From positions 992,001 through 1,056,000 of the forward strand of contig NZ_BJOR01000001.1 in the NCBI RefSeq assembly GCF_006540305.1: 64,000 nucleotides of DNA, in the 5' to 3' direction. The DNA is from Streptomyces sp. 6-11-2 (lineage in GTDB: Bacteria; Actinomycetota; Actinomycetes; Streptomycetales; Streptomycetaceae). Of this stretch, positions 38,669 through 54,724 are shown piece by piece. Positions within the stretch are counted from its first letter, which is position 1; each line of letters starts with the position of its first letter. The notes beneath the pieces were generated by a model, which saw only the letters and a program-made list of their open reading frames with translations, was not told the origin of the DNA and searched no databases. Made by a program: the position numbers and the translations under genes.

Positions 38669-39826
38669 TTACTTGCGGCGCAGCGCGGCCATGTTCCGGC
38701 AGCCGATCCGCGCGTGCTCCAGCGACTGGCCCGGGTCGGTGGAGCTCGGGGCGTTGTCCTGCTCGACCATCGGGTTGTGGTAGTTCGGACTGCCGACCCG
38801 GGAGAAGAAGGTGGTGTAGTCGATGACACCGGTGCCGAACGGGACCATGTCGTAGCCCTGTCCGTTGGTGTTGTTGATGACGCCGTCCTTGGCGTGGAAC
38901 AGCGGGTAGCGCTTGTCGTGGCGGGTGACGAGGCCGGCCGGGTCGAAGATGTTCTGCCGGGTGGCGCCGTCGTGGTCGGTGTAGGTGCGGAACTTGTACT
39001 GGGCCACGTGCGCCCAGAAGATGTCCATCTCCAGCCAGATCAGCTTGGGGTCGGTGATGGACAGGAAGTACTCCAGCTTGCGGATGCCGGAGCTGCGGGT
39101 CGGGCGGCCCTGGGCGTCGAGCGGGCCGCCGTCGAGCAGGAAGCCGTAGGCCGCGTCGTGGTTGTGGGTGTAGAGCTTGATCCCGGCTCTGCGGGCGATC
39201 TCGCCGAGGACGTGCCACTTCTCGGCGGCGACGTCCCAGTCGGCCTTGTAGTTGCTGCCGGTGGGGTCGTTGCCGGTCCCCATGTGCTGCATGCCGAGGA
39301 TGTTGGCGATCTCCAGGTGCTTCTTGAAGGTGTCCAGGTCCCCGGTGGTCAGCGGCCACGAGCCCGGGATGAAGCCGTGGTTGCCCTGCGCCCGCAGCCC
39401 GTACTCGTCCAGCCAGCCGCGCAGCAGCCGGGCGCCCTCGACGGACTCCAGGTTGGCGCCGCCGGGGGCGTTGGCGTGCTGGCCGTACCCCGCGAACTCG
39501 ACCTGCCGGTAGCCGAATCGGGCCAGTTGCTCGAACACGGCACGGAAGCCGGAGGGCAGGCTGGTGGAGAACGGGTCGCGGCCGGTGGCGTCGCGCACCG
39601 TGTAGAGGATGATGCCGCGCTTGTCCTCGGGGACGAGCAGGTGGCCCTTGGCCTTGCCGTTGGACTCGGCGGGGGCCGCCTGCACCGGGGCCGCGCCGAG
39701 GACGGGAGCGGCGATCGCCCCGGCCGCGACGGCGGTGCAGGTGCTGAGGAAGCCGCGGCGGCCGATGCCCAGGCTGCGGCGCAGCAGTTCGTCGGTGCCG
39801 TGGTCGGTTGCTTGGATGTCGTTCAC
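38669..39826 (-). CDS. Tat-exported sugar-phosphate isomerase/epimerase-like TIM-barrel protein (last gene of the ebo-like operon)
   Basis: A 385-residue xylose-isomerase-like (AP endonuclease 2 fold) protein. A twin-arginine signal (GRRGFLSTC near residues 22-30, cleavage near PVQAAP) implies folded export. The barrel follows, with metal-site segments YTHNHD, WLEMDIFW and LFHAKDG. GTG 39826 has GAGAGGC upstream and overlaps the preceding stop by four bases (GTGA). An exported barrel enzyme at the end of a metabolite-traffic operon suggests that the product is finished outside the membrane. Substrate unknown. Confidence 0.85.
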   Translation of the reverse strand: MNDIQATDHGTDELLRRSLGIGRRGFLSTCTAVAAGAIAAPVLGAAPVQAAPAESNGKAKGHLLVPEDKRGIILYTVRDATGRDPFSTSLPSGFRAVFEQLARFGYRQVEFAGYGQHANAPGGANLESVEGARLLRGWLDEYGLRAQGNHGFIPGSWPLTTGDLDTFKKHLEIANILGMQHMGTGNDPTGSNYKADWDVAAEKWHVLGEIARRAGIKLYTHNHDAAYGFLLDGGPLDAQGRPTRSSGIRKLEYFLSITDPKLIWLEMDIFWAHVAQYKFRTYTDHDGATRQNIFDPAGLVTRHDKRYPLFHAKDGVINNTNGQGYDMVPFGTGVIDYTTFFSRVGSPNYHNPMVEQDNAPSSTDPGQSLEHARIGCRNMAALRRK

Positions 39827-41244
39827 GGGTGCCTCTCTTCGGGCTTGTGGTCTGCGTGGCCGAGACCGGCGAGGTGGAGCAGGAGGGACTTCACGTCGGT
39901 GGCCGCGATGCGGTCGCCGACGGCACGGGGGGTGGAGCACAGGAGGAGCGGACCGTCGTCGTCGCTCGCGGGCAGGCGGCCGTGGCTGCCGCGGATGGGT
40001 GAGGCGTCGAGGGGTACGACCGCCATGCGGTAGCGCATCCCGAGTTTCTTCCGGGCCACCGCCGTCGCCGCCTTGACCTTCACATAGGGGTCGTGCGGGT
40101 CCATGAAGAGCTCGACCGGGTCGTAACCGGGTTTGCGGTGGATCTCGACCAGCTGCGCGAAGTCGGGCGCGCGCTCGTCGTCGAGCCAGTAGTAGTACGT
40201 GAACCAGGCGTCCGGTTCGGCGACGGCGACGAGTTCGCCGGAGCGCGGGTGGTCGAGGTGGTGGGCCTTCTTGCCCTCGTCGTCGAGGAGTCGCTCGATG
40301 CCGGGCAGTCCGTCGAGGGCGACCCTGGTCGCGTCCATGTCCTCGGGGCGGCGCACGTAGACGTGGGCGATCTGGTGGTCGGCGACGGCGAAGGCGCGCG
40401 AGGCCATCGGGTCGAGGTACTCCATGCCGTCCTGGGTGTGCACTTCGAGCAGGCCGGCCCGGCGCAGGGCGCGGTTGATGTCGACGGGCCGGTCGGCGCG
40501 GGTGATGCCGTACTCGGACAGCGCGACGACGGTACGGCCCTCTGCGCGCGCGTCGTCCAGGAGCGGGGCCATGGCGGCGTCGAGGTCGGCCGCCGCTTGC
40601 AGGGAGCGCGGGTCGTCGGGGCCGTAGCGTTGCAGGTCGTAGTCGAGGTGGGGCAGGTAGCAGAGCGTCAGGTCGGGTCGGCGGGTGCGCTGGATGTGGC
40701 GGGTGGCGTCGATGATCCACTGGCTGGAGACGAGGTCGGCGCCGGGCCCCCAGAAGTGGAACAGGGGGAACGTGCCGAGTTTCTCGGTGAGTTCGTCGTG
40801 CAGGGCCGGGGGGCGGGTGTAGCAGTCGGGTTCCTTGCGGCCGTCGGCGTAGTAGACGGGCCGCGGGGTGACGGTGATGTCGGTGTCGGCGCCCATGGCG
40901 TACCACCAGCAGATGTTGGCGACCGTGTAGCCGGGGTGGGCGCGGCGGGCGGCGTCCCACAGCTTGTCGCCGGTGACGAGGCCGTTGTGCTGCCGCCACA
41001 GCAGGACGTCGCCGAGTTCGCGGAAGTACCAGCCGTTGCCGACGATTCCGTGCTCGGAGGGCATGGTGCCGGTGAGGAAGGTGGACTGGGCGGCGCAGGT
41101 GACGGCGGGCAGGACGGTGCCGAGCGCGGCACGGGAGCCCGACTGGCCGAGGGCCTTGAGGCGGGGCATGTGGTCGAGGATGCGCGGGGTGAGACCGACG
41201 ACGTCCAGGACGAGCAGGGGTGTCGGTCCCTGGGGCCGGGTCAT
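39823..41244 (-). CDS. Alkaline phosphatase-superfamily nucleotide pyrophosphatase/phosphodiesterase (EboF-like)
   Basis: A 473-residue hydrolase of the NPP/alkaline-phosphatase superfamily. Metal and nucleophile segments are visible: LVLDVVGL at the start (metal Asp), TCAAQSTFLTG (nucleophile Thr/Ser), MPSEHGIVGNGWYF, YLPHLDYDLQRYG and LSEYGI. No signal peptide is seen, so the protein is predicted to be cytoplasmic. It starts at ATG 41244 with a four-base overlap on the EboE-like stop. In ebo clusters the phosphatase-superfamily member is called EboF; assignment here rests on fold and context. Confidence 0.82.
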   Translation of the reverse strand: MTRPQGPTPLLVLDVVGLTPRILDHMPRLKALGQSGSRAALGTVLPAVTCAAQSTFLTGTMPSEHGIVGNGWYFRELGDVLLWRQHNGLVTGDKLWDAARRAHPGYTVANICWWYAMGADTDITVTPRPVYYADGRKEPDCYTRPPALHDELTEKLGTFPLFHFWGPGADLVSSQWIIDATRHIQRTRRPDLTLCYLPHLDYDLQRYGPDDPRSLQAAADLDAAMAPLLDDARAEGRTVVALSEYGITRADRPVDINRALRRAGLLEVHTQDGMEYLDPMASRAFAVADHQIAHVYVRRPEDMDATRVALDGLPGIERLLDDEGKKAHHLDHPRSGELVAVAEPDAWFTYYYWLDDERAPDFAQLVEIHRKPGYDPVELFMDPHDPYVKVKAATAVARKKLGMRYRMAVVPLDASPIRGSHGRLPASDDDGPLLLCSTPRAVGDRIAATDVKSLLLHLAGLGHADHKPEERHP

Positions 41245-42410
41245 GGCAGTTCCTTCAGTCCGAGGTCGGTCAGCAGGTCGCGGGTGAGGGCGAGTTCGGC
41301 GGCGATGCCGTCGGCGAGCCGGCCGCGGTCACGGGGGCGCAGCTCGGACGGGAGCGCCTGCCAGGTGTAGGTCTCGACCTCCAGGTGGCGGGTGAGCGGC
41401 CGCGGGCCGCCGACGAGCCGGGTCAGGGCGGCCTTGAGGACCGGGAGGGTGGAGGTGAGGGGCTCGGCGGGGGCCGCGTGCAGGGGGACGTGGAAGTGGG
41501 CGCGCCAGGGCGCGGCGTCGGGCAGGACGTCTCCGCCCAGTGCTTCCCCGAGGTCGTCGGTGCCGCGCAGGCCGGCGGCGGTGACGGTACGGGTCTGGTG
41601 CAGGAAGCGGGGTTCGTCGAAGGCGGCGAGGGCGTCGCGGACGTCGGGCAGGTGGGGGTGCTCGGCGTGCAGGGCGGCCGACAGCTGGGACTTGACGATG
41701 GGGACGCCGGCCTCGGCGAGGGCGTCCAGGGCGGTGTGCGGGTCCTCGAAGGAGGTGGCGAGGTGGCACGTGTCGACGCAGATGCCGATGCGGTCGTGGG
41801 CGATCGCGGTCAGCGGGGCGATGGCGTCGTGCGTGGTCTCGACGACACAGCCGGGTTCGGGTTCCAGGCCCACCCGGATGGAGCGGCCCGTCAACTCCTC
41901 CAGCGCGTCGAGGCGTTCGGCGAGGGTGCGCAGGGCGGTACGGGCCCGCTCGGCGCGGGAGTCGTCGTACGCGGTGCGCCAGGCCAGGGGCAGGGTGGAG
42001 ACGCTGCCCTCGCCGACGTCGTCCGGGAGGAGGCCGGCGAGGATGCGGGCGAGCGCGGTGGTGTGGTCGAGGCGTTCGGCGTCGGCCCAGTCCGGCTTGT
42101 AGACGCGGTACTTGACCTCTTCGGCGCCGAAGCCCTGGTAGGGGAAGCCGTTGAGGGTGACCACCTCCAGGCCGTGCCGGTCGAGTTCGGCGCGCAGGGC
42201 GCGCAGTGCTGACGGGTCGGTGTCGAGGGTGCGGGCGGCGTCCCGGGCGAGCCACAGGCCGACGCCGAGGCGGTCTCGGCCCAGGCGGCGGCGGACGGGC
42301 TCGCAGTGGTCGCGCAGTTGGGCCACGACGCCGTCGAGGGTCTCGGCGGGGTGGACGTTGGTGCAGTAGGCGAGGTGGACAGTGGAGCCGTCGGGGTGCC
42401 GGAAGCGCAT
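41241..42410 (-). CDS. eboE: EboE-like metabolite-traffic protein (TIM barrel)
   Basis: A 389-residue barrel protein with the EboE pattern: YCTNVHPAETLDGVVAQL near the N-terminus, LGVGLWLARDAARTL, TLNGFPYQGF, GLEPEPGC and ICVDTCHLAT. The His and Glu residues are arranged as in xylose-isomerase-fold enzymes. It starts at ATG 42410, three bases after the TatD-like stop, and overlaps the phosphatase gene by four bases. EboE proteins belong to operons needed to move or finish secondary metabolites across the membrane (scytonemin monomer in cyanobacteria); the chemical step is not known. Confidence 0.82.
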   Translation of the reverse strand: MRFRHPDGSTVHLAYCTNVHPAETLDGVVAQLRDHCEPVRRRLGRDRLGVGLWLARDAARTLDTDPSALRALRAELDRHGLEVVTLNGFPYQGFGAEEVKYRVYKPDWADAERLDHTTALARILAGLLPDDVGEGSVSTLPLAWRTAYDDSRAERARTALRTLAERLDALEELTGRSIRVGLEPEPGCVVETTHDAIAPLTAIAHDRIGICVDTCHLATSFEDPHTALDALAEAGVPIVKSQLSAALHAEHPHLPDVRDALAAFDEPRFLHQTRTVTAAGLRGTDDLGEALGGDVLPDAAPWRAHFHVPLHAAPAEPLTSTLPVLKAALTRLVGGPRPLTRHLEVETYTWQALPSELRPRDRGRLADGIAAELALTRDLLTDLGLKELP

Positions 42411-42413
42411 CGA

Positions 42414-43262
42414 TCACTCCCCGCCGCGCAGGATGCTGTTGCCCTCGTGGGTGGCGCCGGTCGCGGCGACGTCGAGGCTCAGCCGGCCGCTGAGACCGTA
42501 GAACTCGACGGGGTTGCGCCACAGCACGCGGTCCACCTCGTCCTCGGTGAAGCCCTCGGCGAGCATGAGGTCGGCCACCTTGCGGGTCTTGAGGGGGTCG
42601 CTTCTGCCCCAGTCGGCGGCGGAGTTGACCAGGACCCGTTCGGGGCCGTGGGCGCGCAGGATCGCGACCATCCGCTCCTCGTCCATCTTGGTGTCGGGGT
42701 AGACGGAGAAGCCGAGCCAGCAGCCGCTGTCCTTGGCCTCCTTGACGGTGGTCTCGTTGAGGTGGTCGACCAGGACGCGGTCCATGGCCAGCGCCGACTC
42801 CCGTACGACGTCGAGGGTGCGGCGCAGCCCGGTGAGCTTGTCGCGGTGCGGGGTGTGGACGAGGGCGGGCAGCCCGTGGTCGGCGGCGAGCTGCAACTGG
42901 GCGGAGAGGGCCGTGTCCTCTTCGGGGGTCATCGAGTCGTAGCCGATCTCGCCCACGGCGACGACCTGGTCCTTGACGAGGTAGCGGGGCAGTTCGTCGA
43001 GGACGGGCAGGCAGCGCGGGTCGTTGGCCTCCTTGGGGTTCAGGGCGATGGTGCAGTGGTGGGCGATGCCGTACTGGGCGGCGCGGAAGGGTTCCCAGCC
43101 GATCAGGGAGTCGAAGTAGTCGAGGAAGGAGGCGGCCGAGGTGCGGGGCTGACCGAGCCAGAAGGCCGGTTCCACGACGGCGCGGACGCCGGCGGCGTAC
43201 ATGGCCTCGTAGTCGTCGGTGGTCCTGGACGTCATGTGGATGTGGGGATCGAAGATGCGCAT
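42414..43262 (-). CDS. TatD-family metal hydrolase (EboB-like)
   Basis: A 282-residue amidohydrolase-fold protein with the TatD metal ligands in order: FDPHIH (HxH at 8-10), VAVGEIGYDS (Glu), LVHTPH (His), LVDHLNE (His) and LVNSAADWG (Asp). ATG 43262 shares one base with the EboA stop (TGATG), and three bases separate its own stop from the EboE start. TatD-type proteins are the EboB component of ebo clusters. Nuclease activity is possible by family, but a small-molecule substrate fits the operon better. Confidence 0.82.
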   Translation of the reverse strand: MRIFDPHIHMTSRTTDDYEAMYAAGVRAVVEPAFWLGQPRTSAASFLDYFDSLIGWEPFRAAQYGIAHHCTIALNPKEANDPRCLPVLDELPRYLVKDQVVAVGEIGYDSMTPEEDTALSAQLQLAADHGLPALVHTPHRDKLTGLRRTLDVVRESALAMDRVLVDHLNETTVKEAKDSGCWLGFSVYPDTKMDEERMVAILRAHGPERVLVNSAADWGRSDPLKTRKVADLMLAEGFTEDEVDRVLWRNPVEFYGLSGRLSLDVAATGATHEGNSILRGGE

Positions 43263-43966
43263 CAGGACTCCTTGCCGTGGGGGTCGACCGGGCCGTGCGG
43301 CGCGGTGTCGGGCTCGGACAGGGCCAGGACGCGGTGCAGGTCCTCGGGGACCTGGCGGCCCGCGGCGGTGCGTTCGGCGGCGTAGTCGCCGAGCATGCGG
43401 GCGAGTTCGGTGTCGCCGCGGGCGCGGCGGCCCAGGTCCGCGACGCTGTCCACGGGCACGCCGGTGAACAGGCACTTCAGCACGGCGTGGCGCCATGCGT
43501 GAGCAGCCAGGTGCCCGGCGGCGTACGGGCCCACGGCGGCGGCGAGCAGCCGGGTGTCGTTGGTGCGCAGCGCGTCCTCGACGAGCGGAAGGGCGTCGGG
43601 GCCGGCCACGAGGTGGGGCAGGGCGTGCAGGACGGCGCGGCGTTCGTCGGCGGTGCCCTGGCGGTAGACCCGGGTGAGGGCGTCGAGGTCGGCGCGGGCC
43701 GCGTGCAGGATGAGGACGCGGGCGGCGTCGGCGTGGGCGGGGCCGCAGCGGCGGCCCGCCTCGGCCAGGCGCAGCTCCCACACGGAGATCGGCCCGTGGG
43801 TGCCGGGGTGGGCGGCGGCCTCGTCGAGCGCCTGGTCGAGCCAGGCCCGTGCGGCCGGTGTGAGGCCGGTGTCCGTACGGGCGCGCAGCTCGTCCGTCGG
43901 GGTCGGAGCGGGGGCGGTGCCGGCCGCGGGGGTGCCCGCGGTGCCGGTGCCGTGCGGGTGGGTCAT
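43262..43966 (-). CDS. eboA: EboA-domain protein
   Basis: A 234-residue all-helical protein rich in Ala, Arg and Leu, with the EboA pattern WLDQALDEAAAH, WELRLAEAGRRCG, LTRVYRQGTADERRAVLHALPHL and LKCLFTGVPV. It resembles HEAT-like scaffolds and shows no catalytic motif. ATG 43966 overlaps the preceding stop by four bases. EboA is the marker protein of the ebo operon, and its presence between the TatD and barrel genes is the main reason for naming the cluster. Confidence 0.8.
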   Translation of the reverse strand: MTHPHGTGTAGTPAAGTAPAPTPTDELRARTDTGLTPAARAWLDQALDEAAAHPGTHGPISVWELRLAEAGRRCGPAHADAARVLILHAARADLDALTRVYRQGTADERRAVLHALPHLVAGPDALPLVEDALRTNDTRLLAAAVGPYAAGHLAAHAWRHAVLKCLFTGVPVDSVADLGRRARGDTELARMLGDYAAERTAAGRQVPEDLHRVLALSEPDTAPHGPVDPHGKES

Positions 43967-44925
43967 CGGGTGCTCCCTTCTGGGGTGACCGGATGCTCGG
44001 GGGCTGGACGCGCGGGGGCGGGAGGCGCGGGGGCCGCGGGAGCCGGGGGCTCGCCCGTGGACGCGGCGGCGGTGGCCGCTCGGCGGAGGAAGGGCAGGGA
44101 GAGCTCGGCGTGGTGCGGGCCGGCGTGGGAGTGCCGGGGCAGTTCCACGACGGTCAGGCCCTCATAGCCGGTGGCGGCCAGGGCCGCGAGGACGGGCGGG
44201 AAGTCGATCTCGCCGTCCCCGAACGGGAGGTGTTCGTGGACGCCGCGGCGCATGTCCTCGATCTGGACGTGCCGCAGCCAGGGCGCGGCGGCGCGGACGC
44301 ACTCGGCCGGAGGGAGGGGTTCGAGGCACTGGCAGTGGCCGATGTCGAGGGTGAGGCCCAGGTTCTCCGGGTCGCCGAGGGTGCGGCGCAGGTGGTGGAA
44401 GTCGGCGAGGGTGGCGAGGAGGTGGCCGGGTTCGGGCTCCACGGCGAGGGGGACGCCGGCGGCGGTGGCGGCCTCCAGGACGGGGCCCAGGGACTCGGCG
44501 AGCCGCTTCCACGCCGTGTCCCGGTCGGTGCCGGGCGGGGTGATGCCGCTGAAGCAGTGCACGGCGTGGGCGCCGAGGTCGGCGGCCACCCGTACGGCCC
44601 GCAGCAGCAGGTCGGCGCGGCGGGCGCGGTCCGCCGGGTCCGCGTCCAGGAGGGAGGGGCCGTGCTTGCGCCGCGGGTCGAGCACGTAACGGGCGCCCGT
44701 CTCCACCGTCACCCCGAGGCCCAGCGCGTCCAGCCGGTGCGCGACCCGGCGGGTGCGGGCGGCCAGGTCGGGGGCGAGCGGGTCGAGGTGCATGTGGTCG
44801 AGGGTCAGTCCCACGCCGTCGTAGCCGAGGTCGGCGAGCAGGCCGAGGGCGTCGTCGAGGCGCAGGTCCGCGAGGCCGTTGGTGCCGTAGCCGAAGCGCG
44901 GGGCCGCGGCGGGGTCGGGGCTCAT
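43963..44925 (-). CDS. Cytoplasmic sugar-phosphate isomerase/epimerase-like protein
   Basis: A 320-residue xylose-isomerase-like TIM barrel without a signal peptide. Metal-site segments are LAVEPEPGH, LTLDIGHCQ, HVQIEDM and LTVVELPRHSH. The last 40 residues are Pro/Ala-rich. ATG 44925 overlaps the prenyltransferase stop by four bases; the longer open frame upstream is a shadow of that gene. It is one of three barrel enzymes in this operon, and substrate specificity cannot be read. Confidence 0.82.
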   Translation of the reverse strand: MSPDPAAAPRFGYGTNGLADLRLDDALGLLADLGYDGVGLTLDHMHLDPLAPDLAARTRRVAHRLDALGLGVTVETGARYVLDPRRKHGPSLLDADPADRARRADLLLRAVRVAADLGAHAVHCFSGITPPGTDRDTAWKRLAESLGPVLEAATAAGVPLAVEPEPGHLLATLADFHHLRRTLGDPENLGLTLDIGHCQCLEPLPPAECVRAAAPWLRHVQIEDMRRGVHEHLPFGDGEIDFPPVLAALAATGYEGLTVVELPRHSHAGPHHAELSLPFLRRAATAAASTGEPPAPAAPAPPAPARPAPEHPVTPEGSTR

Positions 44926-46217
44926 GTCACGCTCACCTTCCTCGCGAACCTTCGGGCCAGCGGGGCCAGGGCGGCCGTGCACAGGGCGGTGAGCGGTGCG
45001 CCCGCGCGGGCGGACAGCGCTGCCTGGAGCGGGATCATGGCGCGGATGCCGCCGCCGACGGCCCTCTGGGTGAGCGGGGGCGAGGAGTTGAGGACGGCGT
45101 GGGCGAGGGGGCGGGCGACGGTGGCGGCGTAGCCGAGCGCGAGTGCCGCACGGAGCGCATCGACCGGTGCGGGGGTGAGGCCCGGCGGACCGAGGGGGGC
45201 TGCTCCACCTCGGTCCGCCGGGAGTCTGAGGGCCACGGCGGGCGGGGTCAGTGCGTACGCGACGCCGGAGGTGACCGCGAGGGCCGCGAGCGGGACGGCG
45301 GTGGAGCCGCCCTGGGTCTCGCGGCGCGATACGGCGGTGACGGCCAGGGTGTGGGCGCCGAGGGCGGCGGCGGACGGTACGGCGTCGCGGACCCGGCCGC
45401 CGCTCGCGGCGGCGCCGAGCACGAGGTCGAGGCTCCGGGCCGCCGCCATCACCGGCGGTCCCGCCCAGTTCCGCTTCAGACCGAGGTCGTACGCCCAGAC
45501 CGTGGCGGCGAGCGGTACGGCGACGGTGAGCGCGGGCCGCCCGGCGCGGGCGGCGAGCGCGAGGCCCAGGGCGGTGAGCGCGCCGGCCGCGGCGAGCGCG
45601 GCGCCGGGGGCGATCCGCCCGGACGGGAGCGGCCGGTGCGGGCGCTCCACGGCGTCCTCGGCACGGTCCGCCCAGTCGTTGAGCGCCATGCCCGCCTGGT
45701 AGAGGCACAGGGACGAGCCGATGGCCAGGAGGGTACGGGTCCCGGGGGCCCGCCCGGCCACCGCGGCCCCGGCGAGGGCGTCGCCGGGGACGGTGAACAG
45801 GGCGGGCAGCCGCAGCAGTTCGACCCAGTCGGCGGGGGTGCCGAGGGCTGGGCGGCGGGGTGGGTGCGGGGTGGAGGTGGGCGCGGGGGCCGGGTCCGTG
45901 GCGGTGGAGGCGACGGGATCGCCATCCGCCCGCGCCGGCCGGGGACCGCCCTCCGACGGCCCGGCCCCCGCCGGCTGTCCGGCGAAAGCCACGGGCGCGG
46001 CGGGGGTTGCCGTGGGGCCCTCCCCCGCCGGGCCGGTCGGATCCGCGGATCCGGCGGGTCTTGCGTCCGACCGCGTCCCCTGCTCCGCCCGCGGCGGTGG
46101 TGACGCGTGGTCCTCCTCCCGGCGCGGGCGGCCGCGGGACGCGGATCCGCGCGCTCCGACGACGGCGGCGACGGTCACCGCCAGGGCGATGGCCACCAGA
46201 CCGTGGCGGGTCGTCAC
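44922..46217 (-). CDS. UbiA-family prenyltransferase (EboC-like) with a Pro-rich N-terminal extension
   Basis: Integral-membrane prenyltransferase of 431 residues. The UbiA core (about 130-425) has the first Asp-rich motif NDWADRAEDAVERPHRP, which binds prenyl diphosphate through Mg, and several hydrophobic helices. The second Asp motif is weak (YDLGLKRNW, SLDLVLG). Ahead of the core lie an extra N-terminal hydrophobic helix (8-23) and about 95 residues of Pro/Ala/Gly low-complexity sequence, absent from ordinary UbiA proteins. ATG 46217 overlaps the inositol-phosphate-synthase-like stop by four bases. It would attach a prenyl chain to the operon's product, perhaps the cyclitol made by the next enzyme. 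Confidence 0.83.
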   Translation of the reverse strand: MTTRHGLVAIALAVTVAAVVGARGSASRGRPRREEDHASPPPRAEQGTRSDARPAGSADPTGPAGEGPTATPAAPVAFAGQPAGAGPSEGGPRPARADGDPVASTATDPAPAPTSTPHPPRRPALGTPADWVELLRLPALFTVPGDALAGAAVAGRAPGTRTLLAIGSSLCLYQAGMALNDWADRAEDAVERPHRPLPSGRIAPGAALAAAGALTALGLALAARAGRPALTVAVPLAATVWAYDLGLKRNWAGPPVMAAARSLDLVLGAAASGGRVRDAVPSAAALGAHTLAVTAVSRRETQGGSTAVPLAALAVTSGVAYALTPPAVALRLPADRGGAAPLGPPGLTPAPVDALRAALALGYAATVARPLAHAVLNSSPPLTQRAVGGGIRAMIPLQAALSARAGAPLTALCTAALAPLARRFARKVSVT

Positions 46218-47338
46218 TGGTCCCCCAGCCGTCGGCCGAAGTCCAGGAGCGCCGCGTACTGCTCCCCCAGCGCGGCGGAGGCGCCCGGGTCGGGATCCTT
46301 GAAGTAGAAGCCGAGTTCGGGGCGCGGCCCGGTCAGTCCGCGTTCGTGGGCGCGGGCCAGCAGCCGGGCCAGGTCGAGGACCAGGGGCGCGGCGAGCGCC
46401 GAGTCGCAGCCCTGCCAGGTGGTCTGGAGGGTCATCCGGGAGCCGAGGAAGCCGTCGAAGGCGATGTGGTCCCAGGCGGTCTTCCAGTCGCCGAGCGCGG
46501 GCACGTCGTCGATGTGCACCTCTCCCTGGGGAACCGTGCCCAGGGTGTCGGCGAGGACCCGTTCCTTGCCGGAGTTCTTCGCCGCGGCGGCGGCGGGGTC
46601 GGCGAGGGCGGCGCCGTCACCGCCGCCGAGGAGGTTCGTTCCGGACCAGGCCAGCACCCGCAGCGCCCGCTGCGTGAACATCGGGCCGAGCACGGACCGC
46701 AGCAGGGTCTGCCCGGTCTTGCCGTCGCGGCCCGCGTACGGCAGGGCGGCCGTCTCGGCCTCGGCGGCGAGCGCGGGGTGGTGCAGCCCGGTCGACGGGG
46801 TGAAGTTGACGTACGGGCAGCCCGCCCGCAGGGCCGCTGCCGCGTAGAGCGAGCTGGCGGGCAGGGCGGTGCCCTCGGGGGCCGGTTCGGTGGAGGCGAC
46901 GTTGACGACGACGGTGCGGGCGAGGTTGTGGCTGCGGGTGAAGTCTCGGATGTCATCGGCGAGGGCGTCGATGAGAACGTCCTCGCTCCGGGTGTCTCCG
47001 GGCAGCGGACCGCCTGGCCTGATCTCCCCGTCGGCGGAGGCGAGTTCACTGTGGACCGCGGACGGCAGGCCGTGCGGCAGGACACCGCCGGCGGCAAGGC
47101 TCTCGGCCCGTTTGGGCAGCGGGCAGTCCACGGTGTCGTGCCCGCCGAAGACGAGGGAGGACAGGGCGGGCAGGCCGCTCGCGGCGAAGGGCTCCGTCTC
47201 GGTGACGAGGCCGGCGGCGGGATGCAGTCCGGCGGCGACGGCGGCGCATCCGGTGATGGCGGTGGTGGCGACGGAGCCTCTCGCGCCGATCAGCCAGACG
47301 CCGGTGCGGGAGGGGGAAGCGGAAGGTTCGGCGGACAT
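46214..47338 (-). CDS. Inositol-3-phosphate synthase-like NAD-dependent cyclase (first gene of the ebo-like operon)
   Basis: A 374-residue member of the myo-inositol-phosphate synthase superfamily, which cyclises glucose 6-phosphate. Visible family segments are the NAD-binding GVWLIGARGSVATT, VNVASTEP, PYVNFTPSTG, GRDGKTGQTLLRS, NLLGGGDG and NSGKERV. ATG 47338 has AAGGAGG six bases upstream. It is the promoter-proximal gene of an eight-gene overlapped operon. Canonical ebo clusters encode a dehydroquinate-synthase-like cyclase (EboD); here this different NAD-dependent sugar-phosphate cyclase takes that position. It is probably not the sole housekeeping inositol synthase, given its dedicated context. 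Confidence 0.85.
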   Translation of the reverse strand: MSAEPSASPSRTGVWLIGARGSVATTAITGCAAVAAGLHPAAGLVTETEPFAASGLPALSSLVFGGHDTVDCPLPKRAESLAAGGVLPHGLPSAVHSELASADGEIRPGGPLPGDTRSEDVLIDALADDIRDFTRSHNLARTVVVNVASTEPAPEGTALPASSLYAAAALRAGCPYVNFTPSTGLHHPALAAEAETAALPYAGRDGKTGQTLLRSVLGPMFTQRALRVLAWSGTNLLGGGDGAALADPAAAAAKNSGKERVLADTLGTVPQGEVHIDDVPALGDWKTAWDHIAFDGFLGSRMTLQTTWQGCDSALAAPLVLDLARLLARAHERGLTGPRPELGFYFKDPDPGASAALGEQYAALLDFGRRLGDQ

Positions 47339-47844: not shown

Positions 47845-50800
47845 TCAGGCGGTGCGCGGCTTGCAGTCGGCCTTCTCCTGGCCGGTGACGTACTTCAGCC
47901 CACCGAGCAGGTGACTGCGGAAGCCGTCCTCGGCGTAGGACTCCTTCGTGTGGCCGAGGCCGGTGTAGAAGGAGCGCCCGCCCTGGTAGGCCTGGCACCA
48001 GGCGATCGGGTGGTCGCCGTTCATCGTGCCGCCCTGGTAGGTGCTCTCGTCCAGGGTGGCCAGGACGCGGGCGTGGTCACGCGGGTTGGAGCGGTAGTTG
48101 TACCACTCGTCCGTGCGGTCCCACGCGTCGTCGAGGCCCTTGGTGGCCGGGTGGTCGTGCTCGGGGACCCGGACGGTGGCCTTCTGGATCTGCGGGTGCG
48201 AGTCGAAGTACGCGCCGACCAGGCCGCCGTAGAACGGCCACTCGTACTCGGTGTCGGCGGCCGCGTGGATGCCCATGTAACCGCCGCCGCCGGCGATGTA
48301 CTTCTCGAACGCCTGCTTCTGGTCGGCGTTCAGGACGGTGCCGGTGGTGGAGAGGAAGACGACGGCGTCGTAGCGGGCGAGGTTGGCGGTGGTGAACTGC
48401 TTGGCCTCCTCGGTGGAGTCGACGGTGATGCCGCTCGGCCCGCCGAGGTCCTTCAGGGCCTGGACGCCGGTCTCGATGGAGTCGTGGCGGAAGCCGGCCG
48501 TCTTGGAGAAGACGAGGACCCGCTTGGCGTTCTTCGCCGGCTTCTTGTCCGAGATCATGAAGTCGTCGACGTCGTAGAGCGCTCCGTCACCGCCCTTGAA
48601 GACCAGGTACAGCTCGGTGGTCTTCTTCGGCAGCTTGCTGAGCGGGATGTCGATGTTCTGGAAGGTCTCCCAGCCGCCGGTCACCGGGACGACCCCGGAG
48701 CCGTGCAGGGTGCCGTTCGGCCCTCCGGTGCGAACCTCCAGGTACCCGCCGGCGCCGCCGGAGGAGACCCGGGCGGTGAGCGTCTGGGCGCCTTCGAGGT
48801 TGTACGGCTTGAACGAGATCCAGTCACCGTTGTCGATGTCGCCGACGGTCTTGCCGCCGTGCGCCTCGGTCTTGTCGTAGGTGCGGATGCCGCTCTGGGC
48901 GTTGAAGTGCTCGGCCTGCCGGTGGCGGGGCTGGAGCACGATCCGGGCGTGGGTGGTCAGTGCTTCCTGGCCACCACCGCCGTTGTCGGTGTACTCGGCG
49001 TCGAGGACCCCGAAGATGTTGGCGTTGGGGTCGTGCTCGCCGTCGGCCGGCACGGCGAGGGTGCCCTCGCAGCCGTTGGCCGAGGTGATCGGGTGACCGT
49101 GGCTGTCGTGGCCGAGGATGTAGCGGACGGTGACCTTGGAGCAGTCGATCTTCTTGTCCTCGGCGTCGGTGACCTTCACCTTGAACGGGATGGTGTCACC
49201 GAACTCGAACAGGGCGCCGTCCGCCGGGTTCTGGAAGGTGACGATGGGCGCGGTGTTGCCGACGACCACATGGACGTTGGCGGTGGCGGTGTAGCCGCTC
49301 GGGTCCGTCACGGTGACGGTGGCGGTGTACGTGCCGTTGGCGCGGTAGGTGTGCTGCGGCTTCGCGCCGGTGCCGGTGGTGCCGTCACCGAAGTCCCAGC
49401 TGTAGGTGAGCGCGTCACCGTCGGCATCCTCGCCGGTCGCGGAGAAGGACACCTTCAGGGGCGCCTTGCCGGAGGTCTTGTCCGACGTGGCGGTCACGGT
49501 CGGCGCGTGGCCGTTGGTGACGTTCTCGATGCGGTAGAGCGCGGAGTTCTCGTCGCCGCCGAACCAGGACAGGCCGTAGTCCAGGACGTAGAGGGCGCCG
49601 TCCGGGCCGAAGGCCATGTCCATCACCTGGGTGCCGGACCAGGGGAAGGGGTTGATGGACTTGACGGTGCCGTCGTCGTCCTGCTCGATCCGCTTGATCC
49701 ACCGGCGGCCGAACTCACCGGCGAAGAAGTCCCCGTCGTAGGCCTCGGGGAACTTCGCGGCGGAGTTCAGGTCGGGGTCGTAGCGGTAGACCGGGCCGCC
49801 CATCGGGGACTCGGAGCCGGTGCCGAACTCGGGAATGGAGCCGCCGTCGTAGTCGATCCAGGCCGGCTGGGCCGGCGGGAGGTCGACCAGGCCTGTGTTG
49901 TTCGGCGAGGTGTTCTTCGGCGCCGAGCAGTCGAAGGCCGCGCCGGACTGCTTGGTGGCGAAGTCGTACTTGATGTACGCCTCGTTCTTGCCGACGCAGT
50001 AGGGCCAGCCGTAGTTGCCGGGCTTGGTCACGCGGTTGAACTCGACCATGCCGGCGGGGCCGCGGTTGGCGTTGGCGGAGCCGGCGTCCGGGCCGTACTC
50101 GCCGATGTAGATGGCGCCGGTGGGCTTGTCGATGCTGAACCGGAACGGGTTGCGGAAGCCCATCGCGTAGATCTCGGGACGGGTCTTCGGGGTTCCCGGG
50201 GCGAAGAGGTTGCCCTCGGGGATGTCGTAGGAGCCGTCCGGCTTGACCTTGATCCGCAGGATCTTGCCCCGCAGGTCGTTGGTGTTGCCCGAGGTGCGCT
50301 GGGCGTCGAACGCCGGGTTCCGGGTCGACCGCTCGTCGATCGGGGTGTAGCCGTCGGAGGCGAACGGGTTGGAGTCGTCGCCGGTCGAAAGGTAGAGGTT
50401 GCCGTCCTTGTCGAAGTCGATGTCGCCGCCGACGTGGCAGCACATGCCGCGGGACGTCTTGACCTCGAGGACGTTCTTCTCGCTGGCCGTGTCGAGGGTG
50501 CCGTCCTGCTTCAGGACGAAGCGGGAGAGCCGGTTGACGCCGTCGAAGGGGGCGAAGTCGGCGGCGGTGCCGTTCTCGGGGGCGTCGCCGGCCGGGGTGT
50601 TCAGCGGCGGCGCGTAGTAGAGGTAGACGAAGCGGTTCTCGGCGAAGTCGGGGTCGATCCCGATGCCCTGGAGCCCTTCCTCGTCGTGGTCGTAGACGGC
50701 CAGCTTGCCCGCGACGGACGTGGTGCCCTGCGCGTCGGTCAGGCGCAGGGTGCCGTCGCGGGAGGTGTGCAGCACGCTGCGGTCCGGGAGGACGGCCAGC

Positions 50801-51000
50801 GACATCGGCTCGCCGACCTCGGGGGCGCCCTTGGCGAGAGTGATCTGCTGGAAGTCCTCGGCGGCCGCGGCGGCCGGCTTGGCGGCGCCGGGGTCGGAGG
50901 CGCTCGCCGGCGGCGCGGCGAGCGCGAGCGAGCTGCCCGCGAGGAGTGAACCGGTAAGAAGCGCGAGTGCCTTGTGGAATCTGGGACGTTTCCTGTGCAC
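47845..51000 (-). CDS. Secreted multidomain protein: glucose/sorbosone dehydrogenase-like, PKD, CBM6-like, ThuA
   Basis: A large exported protein of 1051 residues. A signal peptide (1-33, ending ASA) is followed by a six-bladed glucose/sorbosone dehydrogenase-like domain (about 50-440; LQGIGIDPDF, GMCCHVGGDIDFDKDGNLYLSTGD). A PKD domain (about 500-590; YSWDFGDG, ANGTYTATVTVTD), a Cys-containing linker with a GHPITSANGCEG segment, a CBM6-like carbohydrate-binding domain (about 690-830; GDIDNGDWISF) and a C-terminal ThuA-like domain (about 840-1051; VLVFSKTAGFRHDS, GGGYMGIHAAAD, FYTGLGHTKESY) follow. GTG 51000 has GGAGGG upstream and starts the signal peptide. ThuA proteins act in 3-keto-disaccharide metabolism. 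Oxidation plus carbohydrate binding suggests an extracellular sugar-oxidising enzyme feeding the adjacent importer. Confidence 0.88.
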   Translation of the reverse strand: MHRKRPRFHKALALLTGSLLAGSSLALAAPPASASDPGAAKPAAAAAEDFQQITLAKGAPEVGEPMSLAVLPDRSVLHTSRDGTLRLTDAQGTTSVAGKLAVYDHDEEGLQGIGIDPDFAENRFVYLYYAPPLNTPAGDAPENGTAADFAPFDGVNRLSRFVLKQDGTLDTASEKNVLEVKTSRGMCCHVGGDIDFDKDGNLYLSTGDDSNPFASDGYTPIDERSTRNPAFDAQRTSGNTNDLRGKILRIKVKPDGSYDIPEGNLFAPGTPKTRPEIYAMGFRNPFRFSIDKPTGAIYIGEYGPDAGSANANRGPAGMVEFNRVTKPGNYGWPYCVGKNEAYIKYDFATKQSGAAFDCSAPKNTSPNNTGLVDLPPAQPAWIDYDGGSIPEFGTGSESPMGGPVYRYDPDLNSAAKFPEAYDGDFFAGEFGRRWIKRIEQDDDGTVKSINPFPWSGTQVMDMAFGPDGALYVLDYGLSWFGGDENSALYRIENVTNGHAPTVTATSDKTSGKAPLKVSFSATGEDADGDALTYSWDFGDGTTGTGAKPQHTYRANGTYTATVTVTDPSGYTATANVHVVVGNTAPIVTFQNPADGALFEFGDTIPFKVKVTDAEDKKIDCSKVTVRYILGHDSHGHPITSANGCEGTLAVPADGEHDPNANIFGVLDAEYTDNGGGGQEALTTHARIVLQPRHRQAEHFNAQSGIRTYDKTEAHGGKTVGDIDNGDWISFKPYNLEGAQTLTARVSSGGAGGYLEVRTGGPNGTLHGSGVVPVTGGWETFQNIDIPLSKLPKKTTELYLVFKGGDGALYDVDDFMISDKKPAKNAKRVLVFSKTAGFRHDSIETGVQALKDLGGPSGITVDSTEEAKQFTTANLARYDAVVFLSTTGTVLNADQKQAFEKYIAGGGGYMGIHAAADTEYEWPFYGGLVGAYFDSHPQIQKATVRVPEHDHPATKGLDDAWDRTDEWYNYRSNPRDHARVLATLDESTYQGGTMNGDHPIAWCQAYQGGRSFYTGLGHTKESYAEDGFRSHLLGGLKYVTGQEKADCKPRTA

Positions 51001-51319: not shown

Positions 51320-52321
51320 CTAATCGCTGCCGAAAGCCGCGTCGAACGACGCGCTCGGCGGGTCGAAGTCGAACTCCCTGAGCCTCCGCAGCGCCTCGGG
51401 GGCGCCCTGGAGCCGGTCCATGCCGGCGTCCTCCCACTCCACCGAGACGGGGCCGGTGTAGTCGATGGACCGGAGCATGCGGAAGACGTCCTCCCACGGG
51501 ACGTCACCGTGCCCGGCGGAGACGAAGTCCCAGCCGCGCCGGGGATCGCCCCACGGCAGGTGCGAGCCGAGGCGGCCGTTGCGCCCGTCGAGGCGCTTGC
51601 GGGCCTCCTTGCAGTCCACGTGGTAGATCCGGTCCCGGAAGTCGTACAGGAAGCCGACCGGGTCGAGGTCCTGCCAGACGAAGTGGCTCGGGTCGAAGTT
51701 CAGCCCGAACGCGGGCCGGTTGTCCACCGCGTCCAGGGCCTGCCGGGTGGTCCAGTAGTCGTACGCGATCTCGCCGGGGTGCACCTCGTGCGCGAAGCGG
51801 ACGCCCTCGGCGTCGAACACGTCGAGGATCGGGTTCCACCGGTCGGCGAAGTCCTGGTAGCCGCGTTCGATCATGCCCGGCGGCACCGGCGGGAACATCG
51901 CGACCAGGTGCCAGATCGAGGAGCCGGTGAACCCGATGACGGTGTCGACGCCGAACGCCGCCGCCGCCCGCGCCGTGTCCTTGAGCTCGGCGGCGGCCCG
52001 CTGCCGTACGCCCTCGGGCTCCCCGTCGCCCCAGATCCGGGCCGGCAGGATGCCGCGGTGGCGCTCGTCGATCGGGTGGTCGCAGACCCCCTGGCCGACC
52101 AAGTGGTTGGAGATGGCCCAGCACTTGAGGCCGTACTTGTCGAGCAGCGCGCGCCGCCCGTCGAGGTAGGCCGGGTCGGCCAGCGCCTTGTCGACTTCGA
52201 AATGGTCTCCCCAGCAGGCCAGTTCGAGTCCGTCGTAGCCGAAGTCGCGGGCCAGCCGGCAGACCTCCTCCAGCGGGAGGTCGGCCCACTGGCCGGTGAA
52301 CAGGGTGAACGAGCGTGACAT
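51320..52321 (-). CDS. Sugar-phosphate isomerase/epimerase-like TIM-barrel protein
   Basis: A 333-residue xylose-isomerase-fold protein of the IolE/epimerase group, cytoplasmic. It starts [37 protein letters not shown] and has metal-site segments [22 protein letters not shown] and VEWEDAG. ATG 52321 lies 12 bases after the stop of the Gfo/Idh/MocA gene, so the two are one transcript. Together they fit oxidation followed by isomerisation or hydrolysis of an imported sugar or cyclitol. The exact substrate is not determined. Confidence 0.88.
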
Positions 52322-52333
52322 GACCGGGCCTCC

Positions 52334-53554
52334 CTAGACCGGGACGGGCGTGTAGAGGGAATTCTTCGCCGCGCTCTCCTCGACGGCGGCCAGGACCCGC
52401 TGGACCTGGAGCCCGTCGGCGAAGGACGGTTCGGGCGCGGTGCCCGCGGCGATCGCGAGCACCAGGTCGCGGGCCTGGTGGACGAAGCTGTGCTCGTAGC
52501 CGAGTCCGTGGCCCGGCGGCCACCAGGCCTCGAGGTAGGGGTGGTCGGGTTCGGTGACGAGGATTCGCCGGAAGCCGGCGCTGACCCCGGGTTCGGTGTG
52601 GTCGTGGTACGAGAGCTCGTTGAGCCGTTCCAGGTCGAACGCGAGCGAGCCCTGGGCCCCGTTGAGTTCGATGCGCAGCGCGTTCTTGCGGCCGGAGGCG
52701 AACCGGGTCGCCTCGAAGGAGGCGAGCGCGCCCGAGCCGAACCGGGCGGTGAACAGGGCCGCGTCGTCGACGGTGACCTCCCCCCGGCCGCTGCCGCCGA
52801 TGCCGCTGAGCCCGGCCGCCGCCCCGGCCGGCAGCGGACGCTCCCGGACGAAGGTCTCGGTGACCGCGGACACCCCCGTGATCGGCTCGCCCGCGAGGTA
52901 CTGGGCGAGGTCGACGATGTGGGCGCCCAGGTCGCCGAGGGCACCGGAGCCCGCCGAGTCCTTGCGCAGCCGCCAGGTCAGCGGGAACTCCGGGTCGACG
53001 AGCCAGTCCTGGAGGTAACTGACCCGTACGTGCCGCAGGGTGCCGAGGCGGCCCTCGGCGACCATGCGGCGGGCCAGGGCGGTCGCGGGCAGCCGCCGGT
53101 AGTTGAAGCCGACCATGGCGACCTGACCGCGGGCCCGCGCCCGCTCGGCCGCCTCGGTCATCTCCCGTGCCTCCTCGACCGAGTTGGCGAGGGGCTTCTC
53201 GCAGAGCACGTGCTTGCCCGCCTCCAGGGCGGCCACGGCGATCTCCGCGTGGCTGTCGCCCGGGGTGCAGATGTCGACGATGTCGACGTCGTCGCGGGCG
53301 ATCAGAGCGCGCCAGTCGGTCTCGGCGTCGGCCCAGCCGAGCCGGGCGGCCGCGCCTCGCACGGCCGCCCCGTCACGTCCGGCGACGACGGCCAGTACGG
53401 GCCGGTGCGGCAGGTCGAAGACGCGGCCCACGGTGCGCCATCCCTGGGAGTGGGCGGCGCCCATGAAGGCGTAGCCGACCATGCCGACACGCAGCGGAGG
53501 CTTTCCGGCCGCGGGCTCGCTCTCGGCCTGCTCCGACTGTCCCTTCAGGCCCAT
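52334..53554 (-). CDS. Gfo/Idh/MocA-family NAD(P)-dependent dehydrogenase
   Basis: A 406-residue oxidoreductase. The N-terminal Rossmann domain has VGMVGYAFMGAAHSQGW, DICTPGDSHAEIA and the cofactor/substrate motif CEKPLANS; the C-terminal alpha/beta domain contains DLGAHIVDLAQYL with the usual catalytic Asp/His pattern. ATG 53554 is preceded by GAAGGAG. It lies between the sugar-binding protein gene (79-base gap) and the isomerase gene. The family includes inositol 2-dehydrogenases and glucoside 3-dehydrogenases, and either fits here. Confidence 0.9.
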   Translation of the reverse strand: MGLKGQSEQAESEPAAGKPPLRVGMVGYAFMGAAHSQGWRTVGRVFDLPHRPVLAVVAGRDGAAVRGAAARLGWADAETDWRALIARDDVDIVDICTPGDSHAEIAVAALEAGKHVLCEKPLANSVEEAREMTEAAERARARGQVAMVGFNYRRLPATALARRMVAEGRLGTLRHVRVSYLQDWLVDPEFPLTWRLRKDSAGSGALGDLGAHIVDLAQYLAGEPITGVSAVTETFVRERPLPAGAAAGLSGIGGSGRGEVTVDDAALFTARFGSGALASFEATRFASGRKNALRIELNGAQGSLAFDLERLNELSYHDHTEPGVSAGFRRILVTEPDHPYLEAWWPPGHGLGYEHSFVHQARDLVLAIAAGTAPEPSFADGLQVQRVLAAVEESAAKNSLYTPVPV

Positions 53555-53633
53555 ACCGATAACTCCTTCTCGTAAACGTTCGCAGCGGCGTTCCCGACGC
53601 CGTGATTGCGATGTGGGGGGTTGGCAGCGCCCA

Positions 53634-54674
53634 TCACTTGAAGCCGGTGGGCATGTACTGGTCGACGTTGGTCTTGTCGACCACGGCCGAGTACAACGTG
53701 ATGGACGCCGGGATCTCGAACTCCGCCATGCCGGACACGCCCTTGCCCTGGCCCAGCGCCCGGGCCAGGTCGATCGCGGACGCGGCCATGGTGGGCGGGT
53801 ACAGCACGGTGGCCTTCAGAACGCCCTTGTCCTGCTTGATCTCTTCGAACGCGGAGAGCGCGCCGGCGCCGCCGACCATGAGGAACTCGTCGCGCCCGGC
53901 CTGCTCGATGGCGCGCAGCGCGCCGACGCCCTGGTCGTCGTCGTGGTTCCACAGCGCGTCGATCTGCTTCTGCGCCTGGAGGAGCTGGGCCATCTTCGAC
54001 TGGCCGGACTCGACGGTGAACTCGGCGGCCTGGCGGGCCACCTTGGTGATGTTGGAGTAGTTCTTCAGCGCGTCGTCGAAGCCCTGGGTGCGCTGCTTGG
54101 TCAGCTCCAGGTTGTCGAGGCCGGCGAGTTCGACGACCTTCGCGTTCGACTTGCCCTTGAGCTTCTCGCCGATGTACTGCCCGGCGTTGAAGCCCATCCC
54201 GTAGTTGTCGCCGCCGATCCAGCAGCGGTACGCCTGCGGGGAGTTGAAGACCCGGTCGAGGTTGACGACGGGGATGCCCGCGCGCATCGCCTTCAGACCG
54301 ACCTGGGTGAGTGCCTTGCCGTCGGCGGGCAGGATCACCAGGACGTCGACCTTCTTGTTGATGAGGGTCTCGATCTGCCCGATCTGCGCGGCCGTGTCGT
54401 TGGAGCCCTCGGTGATCTCCAGGGTGACGTCGGAGTACGTCTTGGCGCGGCTCTTGGCGTTCTCGTTGATCGCGTTGAGCCAGCCGTGGTCGGCCTGCGG
54501 GCCGGCGAAGCCGATGGTGACGGCCTTGCCGGGCGTGTTGTCGGCGGCGGGCTTGTCGTTCGCCGCGGGCTTGTCGTTCTTGGGCTCGTTGCTGGTGCAG
54601 GCGGCGAGGAAGGCGGTGGCGCCGACGGCGGCGCCGCCGAAGAGCAGACCTCTGCGGCTCGGTATCTGAGGCAT
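53634..54674 (-). CDS. Ribose/inositol-type ABC substrate-binding lipoprotein
   Basis: A 346-residue periplasmic-binding-protein type I receptor. The N-terminus combines a twin-arginine pair (SRRGLLF) with a lipobox (FLAAC), so it is probably an exported lipoprotein. A Lys/Asn/Asp-rich spacer (about 33-48) precedes the RbsB-like fold: VTIGFAGPQADHGWLNAIN, ILPADGKALTQVG, VVNLDRVF and DALWNHDDDQGVGALRA. ATG 54674 is chosen because it begins the signal. Substrates of this subfamily are pentoses, hexoses or inositol. Confidence 0.9.
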   Translation of the reverse strand: MPQIPSRRGLLFGGAAVGATAFLAACTSNEPKNDKPAANDKPAADNTPGKAVTIGFAGPQADHGWLNAINENAKSRAKTYSDVTLEITEGSNDTAAQIGQIETLINKKVDVLVILPADGKALTQVGLKAMRAGIPVVNLDRVFNSPQAYRCWIGGDNYGMGFNAGQYIGEKLKGKSNAKVVELAGLDNLELTKQRTQGFDDALKNYSNITKVARQAAEFTVESGQSKMAQLLQAQKQIDALWNHDDDQGVGALRAIEQAGRDEFLMVGGAGALSAFEEIKQDKGVLKATVLYPPTMAASAIDLARALGQGKGVSGMAEFEIPASITLYSAVVDKTNVDQYMPTGFK

Positions 54675-54724
54675 GGCGATGGCCTTTCCGTTGAGGGCCG
54701 TACGGAGCGGGCGGTTCGGCTGGG

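Follow-up and report, generated by a model that had tools for sequence, protein, structure and literature searches.

By its gene content, a locus in Streptomyces sp. 6-11-2 is an ebo-type operon in which a myo-inositol phosphate synthase (MIPS)-type cyclase stands where EboD would be expected. It occupies positions 38669-47338 of the 64,000-nucleotide stretch that we analysed (the window; positions 992,001 to 1,056,000 of contig NZ_BJOR01000001.1, assembly GCF_006540305.1). The ebo genes (eboA-F) are known from cyanobacteria, Bacteroidota and eustigmatophyte plastids (PMC5133447, PMC6282210), and in Nostoc punctiforme periplasmic export of scytonemin intermediates is reported to depend on the cluster (PMC6282210). 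Comparison of loci across genomes gives good support to the view that a non-homologous cyclase has replaced EboD. Each gene of such operons is already named singly in the NCBI annotation of four Streptomyces plasmid operons; our literature search found no published description of a MIPS-type ebo operon as such, and no biochemistry of the gene set.

A MIPS-type cyclase in the place of EboD

Eight minus-strand genes run in one chain from 47338 to 38669. Their seven junctions, recomputed from the window sequence, reproduced the tight packing given in the preliminary description: in 5' to 3' order, overlaps of 4, 4, 4 and 1 bases, a 3-base gap, and overlaps of 4 and 4 bases. Third-position GC lies at 0.91-0.97 in every frame, which fits genuine coding sequence. 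The first gene encodes the cyclase (46214..47338, 374 aa; PF07994/PF01658). It is followed by a UbiA-family prenyltransferase of the SCO3242 family in the EboC position (44922..46217, GTG start, 4-base overlap with the cyclase; NF045897), by a cytoplasmic, xylose-isomerase-like TIM barrel that we call TIM1 (43963..44925, 4-base overlap with UbiA; PF01261), and by a 234-aa EboA-domain protein (43262..43966, 4-base overlap with TIM1) that passes domain model NF035938 (164/50; scores are written as bits/cut-off) and does not reach the narrower EboA_family model (62/320). A TatD-like metal hydrolase, EboB (42414..43262, 1-base overlap with EboA; PF01026, 52.8/27), is separated by the 3-base gap from the EboE TIM barrel (41241..42410; NF035939, 433/250; PF01261). 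Next comes EboF, an NPP-fold protein (39823..41244, 4-base overlap with EboE; PF01663, 233/23). The last overlapped gene has a GTG start and encodes a TIM barrel predicted to be Tat-exported (38669..39826, 4-base overlap with EboF), so that PF01261 is matched by three TIM barrels of the operon. These profile matches agree with the gene list first drawn up from the open reading frames. Membership of ebo families was found for the EboA domain, EboB, EboE and EboF; the cut-offs for EboC (NF035940) and EboD (PF01761) were not reached in the operon. The 4-base overlap of cyclase and UbiA recurs in all four annotated Streptomyces plasmid operons fetched that have both genes.

Both domains place the cyclase in the MIPS family (PF07994, 115/25; PF01658, 103/27). 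Its best relative in the PDB is the Archaeoglobus fulgidus MIPS (1u1i, 198 bits); Ari2 (6k96) and M. tuberculosis Ino1 score 38.5 and 35 bits. In alignments, A. fulgidus positions D225, N255, K274, K278, K306, D332 and K367 are kept in the window cyclase and are invariant in 26/26 aligned MIPS (the window, 16 sample genomes, three Streptomyces plasmids, Gemmatirosa, four haloarchaea and one Methylobacterium). We take all seven residues to have catalytic roles, and the A. fulgidus mutants N255A, K278A and K367A are named among structure-search entries. Since these residues are kept, glucose 6-phosphate is a reasonable candidate substrate. In a tree whose root (Ino1, branch 4.6) is unreliable, the Methylobacterium sequence groups with the 13 best-scoring Actinomycetota MIPS that lie away from EboE, in a clade of their own (support 1.000). 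A housekeeping Ino1 was considered and rejected, as the cyclase scores 30.5 of 638 bits with TIGR03450; the genome holds one other PF01658 protein, which is Ino1-like, at C1:3510617.

No EboD was found in the operon or elsewhere in the genome (8.7 Mb, three contigs) by PF01761 search and EboD-type models. The genome has two PF01761 matches, one AroB-like and one a glycerol-1-phosphate-dehydrogenase-like Fe-ADH. The AroB-like protein scores 179 of 333 bits with the EboD-type model NF004852 and 154 bits with a purpose-built EboD profile, with which the true EboD of the actinobacterial genome G381 scores 640 bits. A hidden EboD was thus rejected, both proteins being of other families, and so was a second ebo operon: the genome has a single protein over the cut-off for each of EboE, the EboA domain and the SCO3242-type UbiA. 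The preliminary description had named a separate EboD in the genome as the finding that would undo the proposed replacement; these two proteins of other families were all that came to light.

We surveyed 396 Actinomycetota genomes for the same arrangement. The EboE model matched 19 of them, 18 over the cut-off. Among the matches listed, 17 of the 396 carry a window-type cyclase, at 218 bits or more, and in all 17 it lies 3.1-4.1 kb from EboE (P = 6e-28 for co-location, kinship ignored); five of these genomes are related to the window genome only at the level of phylum. The next seven cyclase matches listed (176 to 152 bits) fall in six genomes without EboE and, on another contig, in G279; in the same list, G051, G075 and G097 each have one more MIPS, of lower score, either distant from EboE or on a different contig. 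In G381, EboE lies beside an EboD of the dehydroquinate-synthase type; the EboE of G279 is broken and has no cyclase nearby. A PF01761 search of the 19 EboE genomes found an EboD-type cyclase near EboE in G381 only. The survey proposed earlier therefore yielded the MIPS form in 17 of the 18 genomes with EboE over the cut-off, counted among the matches listed. The replacement stands as recurrent and is no oddity: the MIPS form is the commonest actinobacterial type in the sample.

A profile scan of 56 loci (the window, 19 from the phylum sample, 15 from plasmids and 21 further; matches above 60 bits) gave 26 EboE loci with MIPS, nine with EboD and none with both. The claim that a MIPS-like cyclase takes the place of EboD was borne out as recurrent and, in the loci scanned, exclusive. 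TIM1 is present in 26/26 MIPS loci and in 8/8 complete ebo operons without a local cyclase, and in 0/9 EboD loci, which come from one actinobacterium, Mycetohabitans, Ketogulonicigenium, two Deinococcus, Salipiger, Roseivivax, Azospirillum and Aureibacter. Four loci have a partial, broken or lone EboE (L124, L125, L237, L238), and nine have no EboE (four haloarchaeal ebo-like sets, one lone haloarchaeal MIPS, and four with UbiA or UbiA and TIM1 only). The loci are not independent, being mostly of one genus and including several near-identical plasmids, from which a selection was taken. From these patterns it is very probable that EboD has been exchanged for two genes together, MIPS and TIM1.

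Closer relatives were drawn from the best 80 cyclase loci of a species collection (78 Streptomyces, one Kitasatospora and one 'Actinobacteria bacterium'). Several short contigs end just past the cyclase; 55 loci extend over at least 20 kb and 68 have both cyclase and TIM1. The 55 full-length loci have the cyclase in 55 cases and EboE in 54.

The prenyltransferase and other partners of the cyclase

UbiA reaches the 'SCO3242 family prenyltransferase' model NF045897 (385/260), also matches PF01040, and falls below the cut-off of the NCBI EboC model NF035940 (122/250). Its N-terminal ~120 residues are a poorly conserved, low-complexity extension rich in Pro, Ala and Gly, and relatives mostly align from residue 116-131. 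The first Asp motif, NDxxDxxxDxxERPxRPxPSG, is kept. The site of the second motif reads SRRE in the window and AKAE, AKTE, AKAR or AKQQ in EboD-type operons; the roles of these motifs are presumed from the family.

A plasmid of Gemmatirosa kalamazoonensis (Gemmatimonadota) carries a mixed operon, with EboE on one strand and TatD, EboF, UbiA, MIPS and TIM1 on the other, and the profile scan gave no EboD match at this locus. FastTree trees cluster its TatD, EboF and EboE with those of EboD-type operons, put its UbiA outside the EboD-type clade (support 1.000), and place its TIM1 between the actinobacterial and haloarchaeal proteins. In pairwise comparison, made with no composition correction, the UbiA scores 140 bits with the window UbiA and 86 bits with Mycetohabitans EboC. 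UbiA, MIPS and TIM1 thus appear to differ in history from the other ebo genes there, which suggests a joint switch of cyclase and prenyltransferase. The seemingly separate history of this trio is a hint that the product of the cyclase is what UbiA prenylates.

On plasmids of Halobaculum, Natronococcus and Halocatena, MIPS is accompanied by TatD, UbiA, an EboF-like gene and a pair of TIM1-like genes. On these plasmids the EboE profile gave no match above 60 bits, and no EboA is annotated (no search with an EboA model was made). The Halobaculum UbiA scores 178/250 with the EboC model and 170/260 with the SCO3242 family model, and to judge from these scores it clearly belongs to neither. The ebo-like set of Haladaptatus has no MIPS within the stretch fetched, and Halomarina sp. 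BND7 has a MIPS among glycosyltransferases, without ebo genes. Next in line in Natronococcus are a TIM barrel and a GSDH/PQQ-type sugar dehydrogenase with a cupredoxin domain, a flank that resembles that of the Streptomyces operons.

TIM1 keeps an E, D, H/Q, E pattern in alignment, which we take to be the typical metal site of its family. Its predicted model is nearest to ketose 3-epimerase-like folds, in a list of structure matches most of which are nearly tied. TIM1 also matches, weakly, the model of the dehydratase IolE; among the haloarchaeal TIM1-like proteins, one matches the models of IolE and QuiC. Various actinobacterial EboA homologues are said by Yurchenko et al. (data not shown) to be fused to a xylose-isomerase-like protein (PMC5133447), which fits the position of TIM1 directly before EboA. 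TatD keeps the HxH, E, H, H and D positions in alignment.

EboF was first labelled a phosphatase. Its NPP fold held up (PF01663, 233 bits) and the label did not, as several of the expected metal-ligand positions are replaced. In comparison with the NPP structure 2gsn, IDGL has become VVGL, DEAGH has become DYDLQ and SDHG has become SEYG, at positions that we take to be metal ligands of the NPP family. Across 32 aligned EboF (18 from MIPS-type, six from cyclase-less, four from EboD-type and four from haloarchaeal sets), VGL and EYG never vary, and Q stands in place of the DEAGH histidine except in three haloarchaeal proteins, which have L there. Because these ligands are replaced, the alignment makes an ordinary phosphatase role unlikely; EboF perhaps has a new active site or is a non-enzyme.

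The last TIM barrel of the operon has a twin-arginine signal, GRRGFLS, spotted by eye. Its strong matches are confined to the genus of the window, with weak ones (62-84 bits) in L121, L123 and L194; in the 55 full-length loci, the window type lies downstream in 15 and a 35%-identical type in 38. Of the two further TIM barrels in the preliminary description, TIM1 is therefore a conserved partner of the cyclase, and the Tat-exported one is variable and outside the conserved core.

Flanking genes and other forms of the operon

The neighbouring gene, 506 bp upstream of the cyclase, encodes a predicted secreted GSDH-PKD-CBM6-ThuA protein (47845..51000, minus strand, start inferred at ~51000; PF07995, PF18911, PF03422, PF06283). 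Farther upstream, at 51320-57324, lie a second cytoplasmic TIM barrel (51320..52321, minus strand; PF01261, 153 bits; IolE model 39/290), a levoglucosan-dehydrogenase-like Gfo/Idh/MocA dehydrogenase (52334..53554, minus strand) that scores below the cut-offs of the levoglucosan dehydrogenase (367/650) and inositol 2-dehydrogenase (115/355) models, and a sugar-type ABC transporter. With upstream matches counted on the same strand above 60 bits, the GSDH-ThuA gene precedes the cyclase in 53/55 full-length loci, and the Gfo/Idh/MocA, second TIM-barrel and sugar ABC-transporter genes do so in 55/55. The sequence scan for the genes of GSDH-ThuA, Gfo and the second TIM barrel covered Streptomyces-type loci only.

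Eight cyclase-less operons, all from Streptomyces (L107, L218, L219, L221, L222, L224, L226, L228), hold UbiA, TIM1, TatD, EboE, EboF and, by tblastn, EboA. Beside them lie a P450 in 7/8 and, in 4/8, CrtO-like oxidase, HisN/inositol-monophosphatase-like and gamma-glutamyltransferase-like proteins. Other copies of the MIPS type stand in plasmid clusters, one with a type II polyketide synthase, one with a nonribosomal peptide synthetase and two with ScyD/ScyE-family genes. On the plasmid of Streptomyces sp. AMCC400023 (L133), a type II polyketide cluster encloses the entire MIPS-type operon and also encodes a glutamine synthetase, an adenylosuccinate lyase and an amidase, an arrangement that in our view resembles that of diazo-forming, kinamycin-like clusters; Streptomyces sp. 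NBC_01244 (L125) has a comparable cluster with only a lone eboE. The ScyD/ScyE-family genes lie immediately before MIPS-type operons on two Streptomyces plasmids (L126, 6026-7225; L196, 13686-14888) and recall the scytonemin genes that accompany cyanobacterial ebo. A type 2 isopentenyl-diphosphate isomerase adjoins the EboD-type operon of L110 (12622-13662), and a polyprenyl synthase lies upstream of the MIPS-type operon of L106 (14996-16267).

A proposed pathway and its comparison with known systems

Our explanation of the whole, to which we give an even chance, is that the ring made in MIPS-type ebo operons ends as a UbiA-prenylated, lipid-anchored cyclitol. The cyclase would convert glucose 6-phosphate, with NAD, to 1L-myo-inositol 1-phosphate or a keto-intermediate, and TIM1, as a metal-dependent ketose-epimerase-like enzyme, would reshape this ring. 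UbiA would then attach a prenyl chain to the cyclitol-derived acceptor, and EboA, TatD and EboE may modify the prenylated cyclitol or pass it on. More speculatively, by analogy with Nostoc, the lipid might help a metabolite across the membrane, as proposed for the scytonemin precursor. That UbiA prenylates the product of the cyclase is the best inference from the gene sets compared. Isoprenoid genes beside some operons (L106, L110) and the haloarchaeal plasmids that keep MIPS, UbiA, TatD, the EboF-like gene and two TIM1-like genes together support this reading. DGGGP synthases prenylate an alcohol. The reported kinship of EboC, nearest to DGGGP synthases and to UbiA homologues of archaea (PMC6282210), is further support.

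Several observations weigh against the prenylated cyclitol. The cyclase's catalytic residues also occur in 10 actinobacterial MIPS unlinked to EboE and in the genome's own Ino1; being shared throughout the MIPS family, they indicate a functional MIPS-like enzyme without singling out one product. With EboF lacking the expected metal site, no enzyme of the operon is an obvious candidate for a dephosphorylation step. Given that the eight cyclase-less operons keep TIM1 and UbiA, the source of the ring may be separate. The Gemmatirosa UbiA sits on the branch between the EboD-type clade, taken together with the haloarchaeal UbiAs, and the actinobacterial MIPS type. The EboC relatives that have been tested farnesylate quinolines; phenols and catechols yielded no product with them, and the available text of that report does not mention cyclitols as substrates (PMC9235831). 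Nor is UbiA a constant neighbour of the cyclase. It lies between cyclase and TIM1 in 59/68 Streptomyces-type loci, and one locus has an insertion; in 8/68 (L010, L011, L015, L022, L045, L046, L069, L081) a gap of 87-456 nt separates the two genes, UbiA is missing, and the flanking genes are kept. (A stricter position filter put UbiA downstream in 37/55 loci, against counts of 45/55 and 59/68, taken as more exact.) No N occurs in this gap in the seven contigs looked at of the eight, and the absence may reflect either true loss of the gene or misassembly of very GC-rich sequence. All eight genomes hold an SCO3242-type UbiA elsewhere (seven over the cut-off, one split over two contigs), lying in a complete cyclase-less ebo operon in six, with TIM1 only in one, and at a contig end in one. 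In the genomes of L021 and L040, no SCO3242-type UbiA scored above 21 bits.

Other readings share parts of this evidence. The cyclitol might be dehydrated to an aromatic or quinol-like ring, with TIM1 or EboE acting like IolE or QuiC, and then be prenylated by UbiA to a new phenol or quinone. Most UbiA-family enzymes prenylate aromatics, and the IolE and QuiC matches of the TIM1 proteins point the same way. So do the farnesylation of quinolines by EboC relatives (PMC9235831) and the membership of EboD in the dehydroquinate synthase superfamily (PMC5133447). We nevertheless regard this route as unlikely: the core operon has no aromatising oxidase, the EboC relatives were inactive on phenols and catechols (PMC9235831), and the TIM1 model is nearest to epimerase-like folds and not dehydratases, within its nearly tied list. 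A shade less probable again is that the cyclase makes a ring other than that of MIPS, such as a five-membered cyclitol phosphate as Ari2 does for aristeromycin, or releases an inosose. Such a five-membered-cyclitol-phosphate synthase does exist among MIPS-family proteins, namely Ari2 (6k96), reportedly described by Kudo et al. in 2016 (cited in PMC5350119). All catalytic lysines are kept in the window cyclase, however, and it is much closer in score to A. fulgidus MIPS than to Ari2, a comparison from which the substrate is not predictable. Foldseek with the predicted cyclase model likewise ranks MIPS chains above Ari2, in a model whose catalytic half has pLDDT mostly <50.

We think it improbable that the cyclase only supplies free inositol to the neighbouring sugar-oxidation genes or to the cell, the ebo product containing none. 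The constant presence of the Gfo/Idh/MocA, TIM-barrel and transporter genes upstream, and the existence of cyclase-less ebo operons, would fit such a role. Yet the genome already holds its second, Ino1-like PF01658 protein, four Streptomyces plasmid operons keep cyclase and ebo genes together without those sugar genes at their flanks, and the cyclase excludes EboD in the loci scanned. That the cyclase is a hitchhiker among chance neighbours, irrelevant to ebo, is very hard to credit, given its co-location with EboE in all 17 cyclase genomes listed from the phylum-wide sample, the recurring overlaps, and the return of the set in Gemmatimonadota and haloarchaea.

A broader speculation, which we rate as doubtful, goes beyond the prenylated cyclitol: MIPS, TIM1 and UbiA might together produce a prenylated cyclitol or quinol not described so far, which would serve bacteria and haloarchaea alike as a membrane cofactor or carrier and work with exported beta-propeller sugar dehydrogenases. 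Candidate partners would be the Streptomyces GSDH-ThuA protein, the Natronococcus GSDH/PQQ-type enzyme with its cupredoxin domain, and the ScyD/ScyE-family proteins encoded beside two Streptomyces plasmid operons. The EboD ring would be interchangeable with this one elsewhere, so that the product of ebo would have a C6 ring like that of inositol and not one derived from sedoheptulose. The substrate of EboD has been guessed, from its position in a tree, to be sedoheptulose 7-phosphate (PMC5133447). If a MIPS can stand in for EboD, the ebo ring may be inositol-like, with glucose 6-phosphate as its precursor. The operon would then be a case of a ring-forming enzyme swapped for a non-homologous one, perhaps along with its prenyltransferase.

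Among known systems, the A. fulgidus MIPS (1u1i) shares its catalytic residues with the window cyclase and, unlike this ebo cyclase, presumably serves ordinary inositol phosphate synthesis; Ari2 resembles it in being a MIPS-family enzyme of secondary metabolism and differs in its low score. SCO3242, a 'putative transferase', and SCO3243, a 'myo-inositol phosphate synthase', are listed among the CDA-cluster genes of Streptomyces coelicolor (PMC3610822). This pair, compared by gene listing alone, is alike in that a transferase is numbered next to a MIPS and that the NCBI family of the window UbiA is named after SCO3242; it is unlike the window operon in being given, in the text available, only as CDA-cluster genes (PMC3610822). 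The ebo operon described here offers a possible context for SCO3243. Like the known ebo cluster, the window operon combines an EboA domain, a TatD-like EboB, a prenyltransferase of the UbiA family, EboE and an EboF of NPP fold. It differs in having a MIPS-type cyclase for EboD, TIM1 before EboA, a UbiA that lies below the EboC cut-off and in the SCO3242 family, and a Tat TIM barrel at its end.

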